A stretch of 64,000 nucleotides of DNA, taken from NCBI RefSeq assembly GCF_000158475.2, contig NZ_KI392030.1, positions 143,628-207,627 of the forward strand, read 5' to 3'. Below, piece by piece: positions 12,755 through 23,241 of the stretch. Made by a program: the position numbers and the translations under genes. The DNA is from Oxalobacter paraformigenes. GTDB lineage: Bacteria > Pseudomonadota > Gammaproteobacteria > Burkholderiales > Burkholderiaceae_D. Below the pieces are notes generated by a model. That model made no database searches. It saw only the letters and a list, made by a program, of their open reading frames with translations, and was not told the origin of the DNA. Positions within the stretch are counted from its first letter, which is position 1, and each line of letters starts with the position of its first letter.

Positions 12755-15700
12755 TCAGAACCGCATCTGCCACTGGAGCTGTGCGCCGTGATCGGTGGCG
12801 GCCTCCCCGAAAGTGCCGTGATAACCCAGTTTCAGCGTCATGTCGCGAGCCGGGGCATATTCGACCCCGACCCCCACCAGCGCCGCGTTGCGATCCAGCT
12901 CCGTTCCCCGGATAACATATCTTCCGCTGCCCGGCAGGGACAGGGTCGATTCCGGATGGATGTTTCCGAAAGTATGCCGCCAGGAAATATCGGCCCAGGC
13001 CGCGCTGTTTTTCATGCCCAGTTCGCGGCGCACTTTCGTTCCCAGCGTGAAGAAACCGGCATGCTCCGTGGACGAGCGTCCCTTCAGAACCGTCGCCTCG
13101 CCTCCGCTTTCGCCCCGTTCGCCGAAAGCGTCCGTTTTCAGCCAGAGATAATCCAGTCCGGCATAGGGCGACACATCGGCCTTGTGCCCCCGGAAAGTGT
13201 GGCTGGCCCGGATGAACGCCTGCAACTGGTGCGCATGGTACGACGCCGTGTTTTTCGAGGCCAGACTGCCGACAGCCACCCGCCGTTCCGTATCGACATC
13301 CGTCAGGCTGTACCCTGCCCCGCCCTTCAGATCGACCGGCCCGATAGCGGAGCGCGCATACGCCAGCACATGAAAAGTATCGGTTTCCGCATCGGAGCGG
13401 CGGTTGCCGTCCGCCGACAGTTTCGCGTACTCATAGCCGGCGGCGAGGCCGAAGGCGTCCCGTCCGTTATCGTACAGGTCGATACCGGCCAGGAACCCCC
13501 ATCCGTGATTATCCAGACGCGACGCATTCCCGTCCGCCTTCAGGTGTCCGTCATGGCCCCATGTATCCACCCAGAGCAGGCGGGAAACATCGGCCGGTTC
13601 CGGCGCCGCGGCATGTTCCCCGGACTGCTGCCAGTGCAGGGAACCGTCCCGGTCGAGACGGGAGAGCACCGCCTGGCGGGCATGGAACGAATTGGCAAGC
13701 AGGGCGCTTTTCAGCGAACCGTGAATCTCGCCGGAAAGATTGTCGTAGGCGTCGCGCGCCTGTCCGGCCTCCATGCTGAGGATTTGTCCGTACAGGGCAT
13801 TGCCCGCGCCCGAACCGTCGATCGCCGCGGCCGTGCCGCGCTGGTTGAACGTTCGGGCCACGTCGGCAAAAGCGGCGGTCTTGTTAAAGGTTAGGATGAT
13901 GTTCGTCGGGTTGTAGGTGACATCCGGCGTCAGAAACGCCATCGGGGTGTCGGTATTCAGCGCAAATTCGCCTTGTCTGCTACCTGTCCACGTAAGGATG
14001 GCATACTCCTGATCCGCCTTCCAGATGCCGGCGCCGGCGTTCATGGTCAGTCTGGCGCCGGCATCCAGTATCGCGTCTGTCGCTGAAATACGATCCACCG
14101 ACCCGTCCGCGTAGCCGCTGACGGCATAAGTGCCGCCGGAAGCGATATGCAGCGACCCAACGGTCAGCTGCGCGTTTCCGATGGCGCCGCCACTTTCTAC
14201 CGTCACATCCCCGGCGGAACCGTAACCGCCCAGCAGGCCGCCTTTCACCGTCACATCCCCGACCGAGGCGCTGGCTGAATCGCGATCCCCGATCATCAGG
14301 CGGCCGTTAGAAAGCGTCGTCCCGCCCGTATAGGCATGGGCGCCGTTCAGTATCAGGGTGCCGGCGCCGTCCTTTTCCAGCGACCCGGTGCCGGTGATGG
14401 CATGGTCGAGCGTATAATCCGCCGTCTGTGTGAACCGGAATATACCGTCGTTGGTCAGGGAAGAGCCGCCTTGTATGACAGGATGGCCCGCGAATGTCGT
14501 CGTGCCGGAAAATACCGCATCGCCGGTGATGAGCGTGCCGCCCATAAACGTCGTATCGGCCAGCGTGCCGCCTTCCGCCTTCAGTATTCCCCGATCGCTG
14601 ACGGTCGTCTTGCTGGCCATGCCTCCGGTGACGACATGCTGGATACCGCCGGCAAGCTGCGTGTCGTGTGCCGTACCGCTGACGGTCTGGGTTCCGGCAT
14701 AAAGAACGGTTCCGCTGGCCGTTCCCCCGGTCTGTATGGCCTGTTCGCCACCCCACAGGGTGGTGTCGCCGGCCCTCCCGCCATCCTGAATGGTCTGCGT
14801 GCCGCCAAAGACAATCGCCCCTCCAGCGACAGCGCCGCTTTCCACCCGCTGTTCACCACCAAACAGGAGCGTGCCGACTGCCGACCCGCCTGTCGGGCCG
14901 GCGCCCGCTGATCCGACCGTCTGGACGCCATCGAAAACAGACGTTCCGCTGACCACCCCTCCCTGGCTGATATGCTGCGAACCTCCGGAAAGCGTCGTGT
15001 TCGAGACATTGGCGCCACTGTATACGTGTTGCATCCCGCCGGTATGGACGACCGTCGAACCGGAGAGGATCGCGCCGGCATGAACATACTGCACGCCGCC
15101 GCGGTTGATGGTGGTGTCCTGTGCCGTGCCGTCTACGTACTGCACGCCGCCGTTGTGGATGGTCGTGTCCTGCGCCGTGCCGCCATCCTCTACATATTGG
15201 GTGCCGTCGTTGATGGTGGTGCCGGTGGCCGTGCCACTGACATGTTGGGTTCCGTCTGTGATGACCGTACCGGCAGCCGTCCCGCCGGCTGAAATGTCCT
15301 GCATGCCGCCGCCGGAAAGGGTGGTGTCGCTGGCCAGTCCGCCGGCAGCGACACGTTGCGACCCGCCCTGGACAAGCGTGCCGGTGGCTGTCCCGTAAAC
15401 GTCCTGAGAGGCATGGCTCGTCGTGAGCGAGGTCCGATCCGCAGACCCGCCCTGCGAAACGGTTTGCCTGCCTGTCACGATTTCGGTCTGGCTGGCTTTT
15501 CCGCCCGCGAAAACGGTTTGCGACCCGGGATCGTCAGTTATGCCACCGCTGATGACGGTATGGATCGCTTCTCCGTAAACCTGTTGATCACCCCCGGAAA
15601 GCACGATACCCGAGACACGGGCGCCATCCAGCACGTTTTGCTTCCCGCCGGTACTGACGACTGTCGAACCGGTGAGGATCGCGCCGGCATGAACATTCTG

Positions 15701-18700
15701 CACGCCGTCTCCCTTGACGGTGGTGTCTTTCGCCGTGCCGCCATGTGATACGTTCTGGGTACCCCCGGCGGAGATGGTGGTGCTTATGGCCGTGCCCCCG
15801 AAGGAAATGTCCTGTGTGCCTCCTGACAGCTCGGCACGGCTCGCCAGGCCACCGCTAAAGACCGTTTGTTTCCCGGCACGGAAGTAAGTCCGGTCAGCGC
15901 TACCGTAAACGTTCTGCACCGCGTTATCAAGCTCGAGATAGGTCAAAAGCGAGGAACCGCCCTGCAAAACGGTTTGTGTGCCATCGAAGATCGTTGTATT
16001 GCTGGTTACCCCGCCGCGGGAAACGATTTGGCCGCCACTGGAAATATGTATATTCTCGGCCTTGCCGCCATCCTGCACGTACTGGGTGCCGCCGTGAATG
16101 TTAAAACTATATAGGCTCGCGCCGCTCATAATCTTCTGGATACCGCCTTCATTGAGGTAGGTGCTCATGCCCAGTGATGCTCCCTGATATATGTTCTGGG
16201 TGCCCCCGTTTGCTATGGTCACATCCCAGATAGAGCCGGAAACATCCTGCACGCCTGTCCCCGTGACGGTCACGTGGCTGACCTGAGCGCCGTTGTCAAT
16301 GATTTGCTGGCCATCCGAGACAGTCATATCCGACGCTGAGCCGCCTGCGAAAATACGCTGCGAGCCTCCGGAAAACACGGTGTTCGCGCCCGTGACATGG
16401 GCGCCATTGAGCACGTTTTGCATCCCGCCGCTCTGGACGACTGTCGAACCGGAGAGGATCGCGCCGGCATGAACATTCTGGACGCCGCTGCCACTGATCG
16501 TGGTATCGTGTGCGGTGCCTCCACTTGACACGTCCTGCACCCCCCCACGGATAGCGGTGCCGCTGGCATAGCCTCCACTTTGCACGTCCTGAACGCCGCC
16601 GTACAGGGTGGTACCCGCAGCCGACCCTCCGGAGTGTCCGCCACTGGTGGCGCGGATGACCTGTGAACCGCTGTGGATGGTGGCGCCGGAGGCTGTCGCG
16701 CCGGCATTAATGTCCTGAACGCCGCCGGAAAGGACGACGTGGTTGGCTGTCCCGCCAGCATAAATGATTTGCGTGCCGCTGTGATATATCGTGCCACCTT
16801 CGGCAATAGCGCCATTCTCCACGAACTGACGCCCGGCTGAGAAGATTGCCGTGTCATAGACCGTCGCGTTCTCATATACGTTCTGTGTCCCTCCCTCGAC
16901 GACCGTACCGCTGACATACGTGCCCGCAAAGACATGTTGTACAGCGCCACCGGAAAGATGCGTGTCAATGGCCGATCCGCCGACGGCGATGTTCTGGGTA
17001 CCGGCACTTCCCACATGCGTGCTGATGGCTTTCCCGCCGGCTTCGATGTTCTGGGAACCGTTGTCAAGTTGGGCGCCACTTACCACGCCACCGTTTTGGA
17101 TGGACTGCGTTCCGCCTGAAAACACGGTACTGATGGCAGTTCCCCCGTTGGAGACAACCTGCGTGCCACCGAGAGAGATAACGGTATTCGTGGCGCTTCC
17201 CTGTCCTCCCACCACCTGGCTGCCGCCATCCTTCAGGTGGGTCTGGTCAGCGATGCCATGATTGATGACTTCCTGCACATTGCCACTCCCGGCGACTGTG
17301 GTACTCGTGGCAAGGCCCCCGTCCCGGATGGTTTGTTTTCCGCTGTTGATCGTGGCGTTGCTGGCATGCCCGCTTGCGCCGATTGTCTGGCTGCCTCCAC
17401 GGTTGATTTCGGTACCGATGGCCGTACCACCGGAAGAAACCTGCTGTAAACCGCCCTCTATTCGGGTATTCTCGGCGGTGCCGCCTGTCAGTATGGTCTG
17501 TCTGCCATCTTGGTTGATCGTGGTGTCGATGGCACTTCCGTTTAAGAGTTGCGATCCGCTGCTGATCGTGGTGCCGGTAGCCGTGCCACCGGCAGAAACC
17601 CACTGTGTACCCGCACTTATCGTGGTGTGGTCGGCCTCGCCGCCCTTGAGTACAACCTGTTGGCCGCCGGAAATCGTGGTGCTGGTGGCCTTCCCTCCAT
17701 CACTCACGCGCTGGATACCGCTAGTGCCGCCGCCGCTGGTGATAAGCGTGCCGATTGCTTCACCTCCAAAAGAGATATGCTGCTGGCCGCGGGAGATCGT
17801 GGTGCTGTTGGCCTCGCCGCCATCAAGCACATGCTGGGCGCCGCCAAGGAGAGTGGCATGGCTTGTCTTCCCTCCATCGGACACAAACTGCTGGCCGCCC
17901 CCGCTGATGGTCGTGCCGGAGACCTCGCCGCCATCAAGCACATGCTGGCTTCCATTGGCGAGGATCGTGTCATCTATGGAAGAACCGCTATTGTACACAA
18001 ACTGCTGGCCGCCCCCGCTGATGGTGGTGGAAGTGGCACTTCCTCCGGAACTGACATGTTGCTCGCCGCCACTCGATATCATGGTATTTGTGGCATCACC
18101 GGTATTGACGACAATCTGTTTCCCGCCGCGGCTGATGCGCGTGTTGTCGGCATAGCCCCCGGAAACGTTCTGGACGCCGTCCTGTCGGATCGTTGTTTCG
18201 GATGCCGTACCCCATGATACATTCTGCGTGCCGCCGCTCGAGATGATGGCGCCGATTGTCTCCGCATTGGTACCATCGACGGTCAGGACGCCGCCGTTAT
18301 TCACGACCGTACCGCTCGCCTTGCCGCCGTCGGAGACAAGCTGCTCGCCGCCGCTCGAGATGATGGCGTTGATTGTCTCACCGCCGTTATTGACGGTCAG
18401 GACGCCGTATTCGTTCACGACCGTACCGCTCGCCGTGCCGCCGTCTTCGACATTCTGGTAGGCCTGCACATCGCTGGTGCCATCAAGCCTCGTTTCGTTC
18501 GCCCGACCACCACTGGACACGACCTGTGTGCCACCCTCGACTTTCGTGCCGCTCGTCACGCCGCCCATGGAAACATGCTGCTCGCCTCTCAGGCCGAGTA
18601 TGACGCCGGATACTTCCGCCTGCTTGATTACCGCGCTGCCATCTTCAGAGAGATCGCCCATCACGTTCTGGCGACCGCCATCATGGATGCGGGTGGAACC

Positions 18701-20227
18701 GGAAAGCAATCCGCCGCCATGAATGGTCTGGACGCCTCCGCTTATCACGACCGTATCCTGGGCGACACCGTTATCGTAAACATGCTGGGTGCCGCCGTCC
18801 GTTATGGTCGTATGGCTTGCCAGGCCTCCCGAGAAGATGTTCTGGGTACCGGCGACGCCGTCCGTGCCCGACACAAATTGGGTCTCTGAGGCAATCCCGC
18901 CGTCCATCACATTCTGGACGCCGCCTGAATAGAGTTGGGTGTTCGATGCCGATCCCTGATGATCGCCCGCCCCCTGTATCGTCTGGGTGCCCCCCTCGTA
19001 AACAGATGTTGTTTGGGCAACACCGCCTTGCACTACCTGCGAGCCGCCCGCGCTGATCCTGGCATGGTGCGCGTAACCCTGGGATTCTTCCGATCCGGAG
19101 ACAAGCTGCGTGCCGCCATTATTGACCGTCGTGGAAAAGGCGCTACCGTTCCCTTCGATTTCCTGAAGGCCGCCATTATTGACCGTCGTGGAAGTGGCCG
19201 TCCCGTTCTCATGAACGAGCTGTTTGCCGCTGTTGTTGATGGTCGTGTTGAAGGCGTCGCCACCACTGCTGACAGCCTGCAGGGAATTTATGCCGGCAAT
19301 GGTCGTGCCTGAAGCGACGCCTCCGCCCTTGATATGCTGGGCGCCAGCCTCCTGGAGATTGGTGCCGATGGCCAGTCCACCGCTGGATACATCCTGGACG
19401 CCTATGTGTGGAGTGTATACATAGTCGCCGACCCACCCTCCAGTTCCAGTTATTGGATCATCTACCCACTCACCCTCCCATTTGGACGTGTTACTACCAG
19501 ATACGGTGACGTTGCTGATAATCCCGCCAGCGCTCACATTCTGACGCCCGCCTGTCTCGATGAAAATAGTGCCTTTGACCGTCACCTTGCCCTCGATGTG
19601 CTGCACCCCACCGTTCTCGATTAAAACCGCATACTCAAGATCGTCAAAATTATGTATCGCCGAGGATGCCAGTGTCGTGCCGTCAGCGACAAACTGGTGG
19701 CCGTTATTCTTGATTACCGTCGCGATGGCCGAACCACCGGGTAAGACGTTCTGTCTGCCGCCCCAGTCGATCTCCGTCCATCTTGCATACGCTCCGCTCC
19801 TGATGTCCTGCTGGCCCCCGTTATAGATAGTTGTAAGATCGGCGTAAGAATATTGATTTTCTAGTATCTGAAGACCGCCCTCATAGATATGTATATCCTC
19901 GGTGTGTGCGGTTTGACCCAATAATGAACCTCCGGGTCTTCCGACCACTATCTGCTGGCCGTGCCATAGGTCTGCATTATGGTCGAAGTTCTGACCCATA
20001 CCCACATCCGGTGATACCATAGACATAGCCGCACTCCTCGCCATCGCAGGCGGCACGATATTCGGCGCCAGCACCGTCATCAGGGTGAACAGGGCGACGG
20101 TTTTTTTGAGGGCTGTTTTCAGGCGGGAACTGTCCGTTCCGGAACGGGCATAGCCTCTGGCCAGTTCCGATACCGCGCTCCATGTCTTTGTTTTTCGGTT
20201 GTAAACGGTCTTGAAGGTCCGGTTCAT
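12755..20227 (-). CDS. AIDA-type autotransporter adhesin, 2490 residues
   Basis: A type V secreted surface protein. The N-terminus MNRTFKTVYNRKTKTWSAV is an extended signal peptide region, followed by a hydrophobic core and a likely cleavage after AMA (residues 61-63). From about residue 105 to 1870 the passenger is a long array of ~19-residue strand-loop-strand repeats of AIDA type (pattern Q-x-V-x-x-G-G-x-A-x-x-T-x-I-x-x-G-G). A pertactin-like strand repeat follows near 1950 (GAGTLILNGAHAYTGGTTL), then a linker with two helices. A ~275-residue beta-barrel begins at LLWVDTWGHDG and ends in Phe. GAGGGAAAGCC precedes the ATG. It lies 82 bases after the heptosyltransferase gene, its likely modifier. 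Serine/threonine-Gly loops in the repeats are the expected glycosylation sites. Confidence 0.95.
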   Translation of the reverse strand: MNRTFKTVYNRKTKTWSAVSELARGYARSGTDSSRLKTALKKTVALFTLMTVLAPNIVPPAMARSAAMSMVSPDVGMGQNFDHNADLWHGQQIVVGRPGGSLLGQTAHTEDIHIYEGGLQILENQYSYADLTTIYNGGQQDIRSGAYARWTEIDWGGRQNVLPGGSAIATVIKNNGHQFVADGTTLASSAIHNFDDLEYAVLIENGGVQHIEGKVTVKGTIFIETGGRQNVSAGGIISNVTVSGSNTSKWEGEWVDDPITGTGGWVGDYVYTPHIGVQDVSSGGLAIGTNLQEAGAQHIKGGGVASGTTIAGINSLQAVSSGGDAFNTTINNSGKQLVHENGTATSTTVNNGGLQEIEGNGSAFSTTVNNGGTQLVSGSEESQGYAHHARISAGGSQVVQGGVAQTTSVYEGGTQTIQGAGDHQGSASNTQLYSGGVQNVMDGGIASETQFVSGTDGVAGTQNIFSGGLASHTTITDGGTQHVYDNGVAQDTVVISGGVQTIHGGGLLSGSTRIHDGGRQNVMGDLSEDGSAVIKQAEVSGVILGLRGEQHVSMGGVTSGTKVEGGTQVVSSGGRANETRLDGTSDVQAYQNVEDGGTASGTVVNEYGVLTVNNGGETINAIISSGGEQLVSDGGKASGTVVNNGGVLTVDGTNAETIGAIISSGGTQNVSWGTASETTIRQDGVQNVSGGYADNTRISRGGKQIVVNTGDATNTMISSGGEQHVSSGGSATSTTISGGGQQFVYNSGSSIDDTILANGSQHVLDGGEVSGTTISGGGQQFVSDGGKTSHATLLGGAQHVLDGGEANSTTISRGQQHISFGGEAIGTLITSGGGTSGIQRVSDGGKATSTTISGGQQVVLKGGEADHTTISAGTQWVSAGGTATGTTISSGSQLLNGSAIDTTINQDGRQTILTGGTAENTRIEGGLQQVSSGGTAIGTEINRGGSQTIGASGHASNATINSGKQTIRDGGLATSTTVAGSGNVQEVINHGIADQTHLKDGGSQVVGGQGSATNTVISLGGTQVVSNGGTAISTVFSGGTQSIQNGGVVSGAQLDNGSQNIEAGGKAISTHVGSAGTQNIAVGGSAIDTHLSGGAVQHVFAGTYVSGTVVEGGTQNVYENATVYDTAIFSAGRQFVENGAIAEGGTIYHSGTQIIYAGGTANHVVLSGGVQDINAGATASGATIHSGSQVIRATSGGHSGGSAAGTTLYGGVQDVQSGGYASGTAIRGGVQDVSSGGTAHDTTISGSGVQNVHAGAILSGSTVVQSGGMQNVLNGAHVTGANTVFSGGSQRIFAGGSASDMTVSDGQQIIDNGAQVSHVTVTGTGVQDVSGSIWDVTIANGGTQNIYQGASLGMSTYLNEGGIQKIMSGASLYSFNIHGGTQYVQDGGKAENIHISSGGQIVSRGGVTSNTTIFDGTQTVLQGGSSLLTYLELDNAVQNVYGSADRTYFRAGKQTVFSGGLASRAELSGGTQDISFGGTAISTTISAGGTQNVSHGGTAKDTTVKGDGVQNVHAGAILTGSTVVSTGGKQNVLDGARVSGIVLSGGDQQVYGEAIHTVISGGITDDPGSQTVFAGGKASQTEIVTGRQTVSQGGSADRTSLTTSHASQDVYGTATGTLVQGGSQRVAAGGLASDTTLSGGGMQDISAGGTAAGTVITDGTQHVSGTATGTTINDGTQYVEDGGTAQDTTIHNGGVQYVDGTAQDTTINRGGVQYVHAGAILSGSTVVHTGGMQHVYSGANVSNTTLSGGSQHISQGGVVSGTSVFDGVQTVGSAGAGPTGGSAVGTLLFGGEQRVESGAVAGGAIVFGGTQTIQDGGRAGDTTLWGGEQAIQTGGTASGTVLYAGTQTVSGTAHDTQLAGGIQHVVTGGMASKTTVSDRGILKAEGGTLADTTFMGGTLITGDAVFSGTTTFAGHPVIQGGSSLTNDGIFRFTQTADYTLDHAITGTGSLEKDGAGTLILNGAHAYTGGTTLSNGRLMIGDRDSASASVGDVTVKGGLLGGYGSAGDVTVESGGAIGNAQLTVGSLHIASGGTYAVSGYADGSVDRISATDAILDAGARLTMNAGAGIWKADQEYAILTWTGSRQGEFALNTDTPMAFLTPDVTYNPTNIILTFNKTAAFADVARTFNQRGTAAAIDGSGAGNALYGQILSMEAGQARDAYDNLSGEIHGSLKSALLANSFHARQAVLSRLDRDGSLHWQQSGEHAAAPEPADVSRLLWVDTWGHDGHLKADGNASRLDNHGWGFLAGIDLYDNGRDAFGLAAGYEYAKLSADGNRRSDAETDTFHVLAYARSAIGPVDLKGGAGYSLTDVDTERRVAVGSLASKNTASYHAHQLQAFIRASHTFRGHKADVSPYAGLDYLWLKTDAFGERGESGGEATVLKGRSSTEHAGFFTLGTKVRRELGMKNSAAWADISWRHTFGNIHPESTLSLPGSGRYVIRGTELDRNAALVGVGVEYAPARDMTLKLGYHGTFGEAATDHGAQLQWQMRF
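14610..19910 (-). repeat. Array of ~90 degenerate 57-base repeats encoding AIDA repeats
   Basis: The array lies inside the autotransporter gene. Units are about 57 bases (19 codons) and mostly divergent, but some segments are nearly identical. For example, the block GTCGAACCGG-[A/T]-GAGGATCGCG with its downstream GCCGGCATGAACAT occurs near 15055, 15667 and 16445. Blocks near 17890 and 18001 and near 18300 and 18420 also repeat. This is substrate for recombination and length change. The count is estimated from length divided by unit size. Confidence 0.9.
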
Positions 20228-20309
20228 GGCTTTCCCTCTTTCTTTCCCTGTTTTTTGTCTTTTCCTTTTTTCTCCGGCTTTCGCCTTTTTCTTTCGTTCG
20301 GGCTTTTTC

Positions 20310-21710
20310 CTATTGCCCTTCCTTGTTCGCTTCTTTTTTCACTTCCTTCCCCGAAAGGCCCCGGTCGTTCATCAGTCTTTTGATGTGCCCGATGACCTGT
20401 TGTCCTGTGATCAGGCGGGTGCATTCAAATTGCCGGTCTGTCCCTTTGTGTCTCGGACACCAGAAGTAGTCTTTGTGGTCGAAGTTTTCGTTGACGTCGT
20501 CCCAGCAACCGAAGCAGCCGTGGGTGTTGATGACCCGGTACGGGGTTTTGAATTCGCAGTTCGGCAGGCTGAATCCGCTTATCAGGACGACCGGTATTCC
20601 GCTTGCCCAGGCCAGCCAGGACAGGCCGCTTCCCAACCCGATGAAGAAGTCGGCGTGTTCGAGCAGTTCCACTCGCTCCTGCAAGGGACGGTTGCCTGTG
20701 TAGTCTTCCGCGCCATAGGGGATGTGGTTCCAGGTGAAGCCGCTTCCATAGGTGCTTTCCCGGTCGATGCAGAGTACCCGGTAGCCTTGTTCTTTCAGGT
20801 AGGCCACGACCTGTTTCCATCCGTATCCGTTGTTCCAGTATTTGGCCTGGGAAGAGGCTTGCGTCGCGATGCACACGTACGGTTCCATGACGCTTCTTGC
20901 CGAGCCCAGTTTCAGTCTCGGCCTCTCTTCTTCCGGATCGACGCCCAGTATGCAGCCCGCTGTCCGGTGCAGCCCCACTTGCCTGAAGTCGTAGGGCTGG
21001 TGGTTGCGGTCTCCTCCAAAGTACAGGCCTACCCGGTAGGTCGCGTAGGGGCTTTTGTTTTTGAGGTTTTCCGGGGTGTTGAAGGTGATGGCGGGGTATT
21101 GTTTTTCAAACAGTTCCTTGATTTCTTTTCCCAGTGTGCATTCCAGCCGGCAGCCGTGTTGTTCCCGGAAGCGTTCCGCGTAGTGGATCCAGCCGATCAG
21201 GTCGCCCAGTGTCCCGACCGGAAAGCTGATGAGTACGGGCCGGTCTTTGAGGTTGATGGTATGGCTGAAGCAGGGGTCTTTTTCTCCCCGCTTCCACACG
21301 TAAAGGGAAAAACGGACGAAGTATTTTTTGGTGCTGACGATCCAGCCTCCGTCGGAGTCGCAGGAAAAGAGGATGTTTCCCGAGTCGGCGTCCTGGATCT
21401 GCGCATGCCACTGGCCAGGAGGCAGGAAAAGGCGCGCCCCGTCGTTGAAGTCGTAGCGGATGTTTTCGGGGCCTTTCTGGCTCGGCAGGGCCGGCGGCGC
21501 GACCGAGTAGGCGCTGTCCTGTTTTGCGGCCTTGTCGTTTCCGGCTTTTTCTTCCGCGGCTTTTTCTTCTACCGCCTTGCCGTTTGCCGGTTTGTCTTCG
21601 GCTGCCTTGTCATGTACGGCGCTGTTTTCCGGGGGCGGGACGCCTGCCGTTTTTCCGTTTGCCTCTTCCCCGTTTTTGTTTTCCGCTTCTCCCATTCCTT
21701 TTTTTCGCAT
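20310..21710 (-). CDS. Autotransporter strand-loop-strand O-heptosyltransferase (Aah/TibC family)
   Basis: A cytoplasmic glycosyltransferase predicted to move heptose from ADP-heptose onto hydroxyl side chains of the AIDA-type passenger before export. The 466-residue protein has an unusual Ala/Lys/Glu-rich N-terminal extension (residues ~1-70). An N-terminal domain follows with LFLPPGQWHAQIQDADSG, then a GT9-like catalytic part including ISFPVGTLGDLIGWIHYAER, PYVCIATQASSQAKYWN and GLGSGLSWLAWASGIPVVLI. Cysteines 399, 402, 418 and 430 (C-x2-C-x15-C-x11-C) match the iron-binding set of TibC. Gene order, transferase then autotransporter, is that of aah-aidA and tibC-tibA. The start is uncertain: ATG 21710 or 21695, with no good ribosome site for either. 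Confidence 0.93.
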   Translation of the reverse strand: MRKKGMGEAENKNGEEANGKTAGVPPPENSAVHDKAAEDKPANGKAVEEKAAEEKAGNDKAAKQDSAYSVAPPALPSQKGPENIRYDFNDGARLFLPPGQWHAQIQDADSGNILFSCDSDGGWIVSTKKYFVRFSLYVWKRGEKDPCFSHTINLKDRPVLISFPVGTLGDLIGWIHYAERFREQHGCRLECTLGKEIKELFEKQYPAITFNTPENLKNKSPYATYRVGLYFGGDRNHQPYDFRQVGLHRTAGCILGVDPEEERPRLKLGSARSVMEPYVCIATQASSQAKYWNNGYGWKQVVAYLKEQGYRVLCIDRESTYGSGFTWNHIPYGAEDYTGNRPLQERVELLEHADFFIGLGSGLSWLAWASGIPVVLISGFSLPNCEFKTPYRVINTHGCFGCWDDVNENFDHKDYFWCPRHKGTDRQFECTRLITGQQVIGHIKRLMNDRGLSGKEVKKEANKEGQ

Positions 21711-21750
21711 GCAACTGAGGGTTTTTCTTGTTTGCTTGTTGGTGAATATG

Positions 21751-21794
21751 ATTAATGCTGATACGCGTTAATAAATCCGTTAATGCATATTAAC
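21751..21794. promoter_or_regulatory. Cluster of TTAAT motifs, candidate operator of the adhesin operon
   Basis: ATTAAT (21751-21756), GTTAAT (21767-21772) and the perfect inverted repeat GTTAAT-GCAT-ATTAAC (21779-21794) lie 40-85 bases before the heptosyltransferase start. The 11-mer ATGCATATTAA (21783-21793) recurs in reverse orientation at 21983-21993. The AT-rich block contrasts with its surroundings and suits a regulator-binding site; no clear -35/-10 pair was found. Confidence 0.4.
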
Positions 21795-22059
21795 AGACAT
21801 ATCCATTCTTTTCATTTTGACAAGAGAATAACGTAAGTCTATCAAATTTCAGGGAAAAACGGACGAAAACGGCAAACCGTCCGCGGGCAAGCGGGTGGCC
21901 ACTTCTTTCCGGCCGGGGAAGGTGAAAGAAAAAAGCGATAAAAATCATGCCTCTATGAAAAGACAAAAATACGGAATGTGTATTAATATGCATTTGCGGA
22001 CGCTGGCGGGAAACCGGCTCCTGTTTCTTTTCTGTAACGCGCCCTTGCCGCGTCGGGGA

Positions 22060-22525
22060 ATGTGGCATCTTCCCCCGCCTTTGGGCAGGGGATTCCTGCG
22101 GAGCCGGAGCACACGTGCGCTGACTCTTTAGCGGGTGCCCGCTGCTGGCGACCTGACTGCATCACTCACTTCACAGGCTGGCCGGGCGTGTCCCGCCTCC
22201 GGTGTGTTTATCGCTCCGGTTATATCGGCATTTTCCTCAAATCCACCTGTTTCACACCGGAATGTCGCCTGGGTCTTGCGGTTGTCCGCTGAAACATGGC
22301 CGCCACATGGGCAAGTGCGGCTTGTGTTCTGTGGCGGTATTGCAATCAGTATCCCGCCACGCCACGCCATGCCAGCTTGTATTCCGGTTGCCGCCTGAAC
22401 CCGTACTCTCCCTGATCGGGGTTGGATTTGTTCAGTCCTGACCTGGCTCGGACGTGTGTTCCAGGGGTTTCTTTTGTTCCCGATGCCGAACCGGACATGT
22501 TCATGACTTGCCAGTCTTCCAGCCG
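22060..22525 (-). pseudogene. IS200/IS605 family tnpB remnant (C-terminal part, frameshifted)
   Basis: Read on the minus strand, one frame gives LEDWQVMNMSGSASG, then GLNKSNPDQGEYGFRRQPEYKLAWRG. A second frame continues AWRGGILIAIPPQNTSRTCP, then HVSADNRKTQATFRC and NADITGAINT. This is the RuvC-like and zinc-ribbon end of TnpB. The frames join at a triple tandem CGCCA (22355-22369), explained by a 5-base duplication. The paired zinc-ribbon cysteines are altered (CPCGGH, CETGGF). A third shift leads to SAGIPCPKAGEDATFP over a GC hairpin (about 22068-22090), the usual element end. The N-terminal two thirds and tnpA are missing, so it is inactive. Confidence 0.88.
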
Positions 22526-23241
22526 CTTTTTCGCGCATCGTATTTGGCTTGCCGGCCGAAGGCAGGTGTTCTGGCGTATCCGGTCATCATGAGGGTTTCC
22601 GTTTTGCCGGTTTGTCCGGATTTTTAACGAAGCGCGTGTTGGAAACCCTGTTGTTGCGTTTTTTGGCGAAGCGGGACGCTTGTCGTCAGATCAGGGGCGT
22701 TTTTGGCATGACGGATTCTGTACAGGCGGATGGTTTGCTTCTGTTGAAGCCGGATGCCTTGAAAATGGCGCTTTCCCCGGAAAGGGACAGGGTTTTTGGC
22801 GGGAAAAGGGTTTCCGGAAAAATACGGTCGCGGTTTTCATGGGGGTGGCAAGTTGCCCGATACGGCGGATGTTGTCGGGTGAGTCCCGAAGGGGTAACAA
22901 GGCCGTTGTCGCTGGCCGGTCTGAAACGCGCGCTTTTCGGGCGTTTGGCGGCGGGAAGGGGGAAGGTTTCCGGGTGGATGAAGGGGATCTTGCGAAACGA
23001 TCAAGCGGATACCGGCAGATTCGCGTTATGATATGAAAGGAACGCTTCATTCGGAGAGAAAGCCGCTTTCTGTTCCGACAGGCGGGAAAACATGCCGAAC
23101 CGGTGCGGGATAACAATTTGTACTATTCCGGTTTCGACAGCCTGGAATGGGTAAAGTCCGGAGGTACCGGAGAAACATCGTAAGATCGGGTTTCCGGGGC
23201 GGGGTTCTGCAGGATCCGTTCCGGCAAGTTGTGTAAGGATA

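Follow-up and report, generated by a model that had tools for sequence, protein, structure and literature searches.

A putatively phase-variable heptosyltransferase-autotransporter gene pair and a candidate multi-element inversion system in Oxalobacter paraformigenes

The HT1-AT1 gene pair and a second such locus

The window, i.e. the whole stretch of 64,000 nucleotides that was analysed, carries on its minus strand a gene for an autotransporter heptosyltransferase (HT1) and, 82 bases downstream (gap 20228-20309), a gene for a very long autotransporter (AT1). Both open reading frames had been described in an initial annotation made from the DNA letters, and their coordinates, their strand and the gap between them were confirmed. 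The features of the locus are listed in Table 1.

Table 1. Features of the HT1-AT1 locus (positions refer to the window).
Feature	Position	Strand	Basis
AT1, AIDA/TibA-type type Va autotransporter, 2490 aa	12755..20227	-	profile matches
Block common to HT1 and HT2 loci	20228..21733	-	249/249 and 118/119 identical at the readable HT2 ends
HT1, autotransporter heptosyltransferase, Aah/TibC family, 466 aa	20310..21710	-	profile and PDB matches
Codons of iron-finger cysteines C399, C402, C418, C430 (HT1)	20421..20516	-	alignment to TibC C339/C342/C358/C370
E1, invertible-promoter-like element upstream of HT1-AT1	21776..22000		inverted 22-bp sites; homologue flipped before HT2
E1 site 1, TCCGTTAATGCATATTAACAGA, 1 mismatch to genus consensus	21776..21797	+	inverted-repeat putative recombination site
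Extended -10 promoter candidate TGATAGACT, towards HT1	21836..21844	-	reverse complement of common 12-mer AAGYYTATCAAA; inferred
Degenerate IHF-like site of E1, AATCATGCCTCTA, 2 mismatches	21943..21955	+	position where most other elements carry WATCAANNNNTTR
E1 site 2, reverse complement TCCGCAAATGCATATTAATACA	21979..22000	-	inverted-repeat putative recombination site
TnpB-family protein, C-terminal remnant, just upstream of E1; probably not part of the system	22128..22538	-	profile matches

HT1 matched the NCBIfam model TIGR04414 (hepto_Aah_TibC) over its full length, with 610 bits at a cut-off of 200 (model positions 2-374 of 374), and contained the TibC N-terminal domain (Pfam TibC_1st, 2e-31). 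The match to the TibC structure 4RB4 in the PDB had an E-value of 4e-187, and identity to TibC was 65% over 384 aligned amino acids. The catalytic, sugar-binding and iron-finger residues of TibC were taken from PMC4358343. Aligned to these, HT1 retains all four iron cysteines, the catalytic aspartate (D170, corresponding to TibC D110) and three of the four sugar-binding residues (K290, R346 and W365 for TibC K230, R286 and W305), while T226 is replaced by serine. Compared with TibC, the N-terminus is extended by approximately 60 amino acids rich in lysine, alanine and glutamate. By sequence, HT1 clearly belongs to the Aah/TibC family, as had been proposed together with the iron-site cysteines, and heptosyltransferase activity is predicted for it.

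AT1 begins with an ESPR signal (residues 1-46, 8.9e-11), which is followed by strand-loop-strand repeats reaching to about residue 1900 and spaced mostly at 18-20 aa (TIGR04415, 743 bits in 34 stretches). In total, 91 strand starts of the type Q-x-V/I were counted. The passenger comprises 1886 residues, of which 415 are serine or threonine and none is cysteine. A PATR element (residues 1950-1977) and an AIDA match were also obtained in the profile search, and an autotransporter model matched residues 1947-2490 with the C-terminal barrel, which ends in ..LQWQMRF. The earlier designation as an AIDA-type autotransporter of 2490 residues thus holds, and the ESPR, the TIGR04415 repeats and the C-terminal barrel place AT1 in the strand-loop-strand group of AIDA-I, TibA and Ag43. 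Judged by these matches, HT1-AT1 is clearly a member of the described BAHT/strand-loop-strand system.

A second repeat autotransporter (AT2, 1460 aa) with a heptosyltransferase gene upstream (HT2) is encoded in the same genome. The interior of HT2 is an assembly gap of exactly 100 N, which explains its partial HMM match; HT2 was rejected as a truncated pseudogene, since the sequences flanking the gap are near-identical to HT1. The identity of the block common to both loci drops at the autotransporter start and directly upstream of the heptosyltransferase start. Most simply, the two near-identical genes would stem from a recent duplication or conversion and were collapsed in the draft assembly. 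Beside HT2-AT2, a gene for an AAA-type ATPase is followed by a gene of about 200 aa (L024:7930-9859), which we take to resemble an abortive-infection pair of the OLD/RloB type.

The host, which had tentatively been placed in Oxalobacteraceae, is an Oxalobacter; the best match among named genomes was O. formigenes HC-1 (77%). The proposed search for the pair was conducted in 13 Oxalobacter genomes. A heptosyltransferase above the cut-off was present in four genomes, and the repeats were found in the same four only. Gene order varies, with the heptosyltransferase preceding the autotransporter in O. paraformigenes and genome G147 and following it in G110. In O. formigenes HC-1 the two genes are about 338 kb apart; this distance implies action in trans in a species which has no inversion sites.

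Inverted-repeat elements upstream of surface genes

Upstream of HT1, the element E1 consists of an inner segment of 181 bp between two sites in inverted orientation, for which the 22-bp consensus is TCCGYTAATNNNNATTARCGGA. E1, the HT2-AT2 locus and the elements elsewhere in the genome had gone unnoticed in the initial annotation. Four mismatches make site 2 degenerate, and both sites carry the identical 8-bp core ATGCATAT (8/8). HT2 is preceded by a segment which is 80% identical to E1 and oppositely oriented. Inverted repeats, an identical core and a short segment upstream of a gene fit the anatomy of an invertible-promoter switch, in which the promoter itself is inferred. From the -10 candidate, transcription starting near 21829 on the minus strand and a leader of about 120 nt to the HT1 start codon (21710) are predicted. 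A strict sigma-70 scan of E1 found no promoter, and a competing TTGACA-N17-TATCAA reads away from HT1; hence, it is uncertain whether E1 is ON or OFF. Taken as the promoter, the competing motif would set the window OFF, and it was tentatively put aside because its -35 half is absent in the other elements and the extended -10 is present in nine. E1 of the window is therefore provisionally drawn ON, i.e. towards HT1, and the elements of HT2 and most other loci would be OFF.

With up to three mismatches to the consensus, 23 sites were detected in the O. paraformigenes genome compared to three for the reversed control. Sites were likewise enriched over the control in five genomes of the genus (G006, 7/2; G073, 9/2; G110, 5/0; G124, 4/1; G147, 3/1), and no enrichment was seen in O. 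formigenes HC-1 (2/3) and G093 (3/2). A looser site pattern, TTAAYGNNYATTAA, was rejected, as its counts (26/27) were barely above those of the control (23/22).

Within the searched stretches of the O. paraformigenes genome, at least 12 elements were delimited. The 8-bp cores of the two sites were identical in 11 of the 12 in the automatic register, a scoring which favoured matching cores, and for E12 the match was established by reading the sequence. All cores differ among the 12 elements and are shared within each pair of sites, as is expected of recombination sites which need to match only each other. Each 22-bp site is a near palindrome whose 4-base centre is element-specific and the same in both sites of the element. 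An inner 12-mer, whose distance from one of the sites hardly varies, is common to nine aligned elements; its reverse complement TTTGATARRCTT contains the extended -10 TGNTANNNT. Near the other end, a perfect IHF consensus was found in 9 of 21 elements, compared to 0.47 expected from shuffles.

The genes at nine of the 12 elements encode autotransporters or outer-membrane proteins; the remaining three elements belong to HT1-AT1, HT2-AT2 and a hldE-gmhA pair. An autotransporter barrel was confirmed behind five elements (871, 886, 788, 751 and at least 1085 aa). Four elements lie beside outer-membrane-like genes, recognised by a signal peptide or a terminal aromatic residue, two of which are interrupted by assembly gaps. 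The hldE-gmhA pair, the second of the genome, follows its element directly and is part of a sugar-gene cluster (L115:4491-6529; G000:C2:1264990-1267028), and through its element the heptose supply for some glycan may be phase-variable. A separate gene for an HldA-type kinase is present at C1:269295, so donor supply need not hinge on the switched hldE copy. In relatives, elements precede genes for a porin, autotransporter-type proteins and recombinases.

For two elements, E4 and E12 but not E1, both orientations are present in the draft assembly. At C2:418k, the scaffold runs from the left flank through the element in orientation A and the first bases of the right flank to a gap of 100 N, after which orientation B and the full right flank follow; the two copies are identical at 202/202 positions and reversed. 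At C2:1144k, the element is found reversed (202/202) before a flank identical at 119 of 122 positions. In L107:3731-4345 and L057 (G000:C2:1143500-1146500), the scaffold holds one element in both orientations across 100-N gaps. Such a trace is expected from an assembler if the culture holds both orientations, and in principle a tandem inverted duplication at gaps is the alternative.

A candidate recombinase and the competing explanations

The best candidate for the invertase is P0003, a Xer-like tyrosine recombinase of 331 aa (C2:457254-458246; L079:1153-2148). It scores best to Xer models, yet far below the XerC and XerD cut-offs, and with 34 bits against the tyrosine-type DNA invertase model (cut-off 221) it is no short invertase of the FimB/FimE type. 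Of the 13 Oxalobacter genomes, six bear the sites, and members of the P0003 subfamily (47-63% identity) are encoded in all of these six and in none of the seven others; Fisher's exact probability of this distribution, with kinship ignored, is 1/1716. Subfamily genes are located near an element in G006, G110 (three genes), G124 and G147, and no element lies beside the P0003 gene of O. paraformigenes itself. Plasmid relatives with about 45-48% identity are found in Gram-positive bacteria, the closest in Streptococcus and Staphylococcus, so a horizontal origin of P0003 is possible. A Hin-like serine invertase, suggested by the dyad sites and the small core, was rejected because the genome encodes no small serine invertase; its single serine recombinase is a large one of 538 aa.

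Conceivably, HT1 and AT1 form a constitutive BAHT/autotransporter pair, and the upstream repeat is an inert, MITE-like relic of a mobile element. Both proteins do stand alone as members of their families, the TnpB remnant adjoins E1, and O. formigenes HC-1 has a heptosyltransferase and a distant repeat autotransporter with no elements. However, a transposed relic would lose the paired cores specific to each element, and the elements lie just upstream of surface genes with matched private cores and common inner motifs. Since the recombinase also tracks the elements and the assembly contains both orientations at two loci, we regard an inert relic as unlikely.

Similarly improbable is inversion of the elements by another enzyme, i.e. 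by the housekeeping XerC/XerD or a prophage integrase, with P0003 being incidental. Further XerC/XerD-like and phage-type tyrosine recombinases are indeed encoded in the genome, and the arm layout of the 22-bp sites resembles that of dif. XerC/D-like matches, however, were also obtained in site-free genomes, whereas the P0003 subfamily is limited to the six site-bearing ones and lies near elements in four of them. That the segments are palindromic binding sites of a dimeric regulator, which near-palindromic sites could accommodate, or terminators, to which stems near the elements are similar, is very unlikely, because the 4-base centre varies from element to element, where a shared regulator would require the same one throughout, and because exact reversed copies occur before one flank.

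The reading preferred here, to which we assign a probability of roughly 0.8, is that HT1-AT1 is a phase-variable operon for a heptosylated autotransporter, switched through inversion of E1 by P0003 within a multi-element system. HT1, a cytoplasmic enzyme with a TibC-like iron finger, would transfer heptose from ADP-heptose to serine and threonine residues of the AT1 repeats before export, and AT1 would then display a long, glycosylated beta-helical stalk. P0003, probably helped by IHF, would recombine the two 22-bp sites of E1 and thereby flip the extended -10 promoter so that it points at HT1-AT1 or in the other direction. Its further substrates would be at least 11 elements located before genes for autotransporters and other outer-membrane proteins and before the second ADP-heptose pair, so that the surface coat of a cell would be drawn stochastically. 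Extended to the genus, it is probable that gut Oxalobacter outside O. formigenes possess a dedicated, genome-wide inversion regulon, in which a Xer-like recombinase flips about 12 promoters with private cores independently and makes surface display and glycosylation stochastic.

Known systems and wider distribution

TibC-TibA of ETEC and Aah-AIDA-I of DAEC resemble HT1-AT1 in enzyme family, catalytic and iron-finger residues, gene order and the strand-loop-strand acceptor. In contrast to these BAHT systems, AT1 has nearly twice the length of AIDA-I (NCBIfam model of 1287 positions), and O. paraformigenes has the ~60-aa extension of the heptosyltransferase, two heptosyltransferase/autotransporter loci with near-identical enzymes and an upstream element.

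Inversion of a ~260-bp promoter element by tyrosine recombinases controls one autotransporter in ipuS-UpaE of uropathogenic E. coli (PMC6083910). Inversion of a promoter element before an autotransporter is likewise proposed here from sequence features, but ipuS-UpaE involves one locus, 7-bp repeats and several FimB-like recombinases, whereas Oxalobacter has at least 12 loci, 22-bp sites and one Xer-like candidate. In fimS of E. coli, the tyrosine recombinases FimB and FimE perform inversion with IHF as accessory factor (PMC6083910). The IHF-like sites inside the Oxalobacter elements are a likeness to fimS, which differs in its single fimbrial operon, its sites and its recombinase. As proposed for Oxalobacter, one recombinase sets several surface-determining promoters in Bacteroides fragilis (Mpi) and Clostridioides difficile (RecV). 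Mpi is a serine recombinase which inverts multiple promoters. RecV is a tyrosine recombinase of a Firmicute and operates several switches (PMC7446863). Compared to both, Oxalobacter is a betaproteobacterium, and autotransporters are the main cargo.

Full-text literature searches returned nothing on phase variation in Oxalobacter; the inverton survey of Jiang et al. 2019, which may include some of the elements, was outside their scope. Both the switching of a single autotransporter by tyrosine recombinases and the operation of several switches by one recombinase are already known. The unexpected part is the location of a known kind of pair behind an apparently flippable promoter segment, one of at least 12 such segments in the genome which seem to switch its surface proteins. 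If true, this would be a betaproteobacterial multi-promoter inversion system devoted mainly to autotransporters, in which the glycosylation of an adhesin is switched together with the adhesin. Oxalobacter is under study as a live therapy for oxalate kidney stones, and an adhesin repertoire subject to phase variation could bear on the uneven colonisation of people by strains and on why a single sequenced culture may not be representative of its strain.

The expectation of the initial annotation that such pairs are mainly enterobacterial was not upheld: Laribacter and several Burkholderia are among the members in the paper defining BAHT (PMC4358343). The family of the pair is thus already known in betaproteobacteria, and the pair alone is no new kind. 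Relatives of the heptosyltransferase were also found in other phyla, with 52-64% identity in the best segment, namely in Selenomonas ruminantium, a Lentisphaeria MAG and Desulfovibrio, which suggests a wide horizontal spread of the pair. The acceptor array had been considered much longer than in described pairs; it is indeed very long, but long partners are not unique to the window, as a related MAG of Oxalobacter has one of 2125 aa and the ORFs that follow the S. ruminantium heptosyltransferases comprise 1858-1953 aa. Finally, divergent matches to TIGR04414 (272-274 bits, model positions 26-371) were detected in two genomes of another genus of the family.
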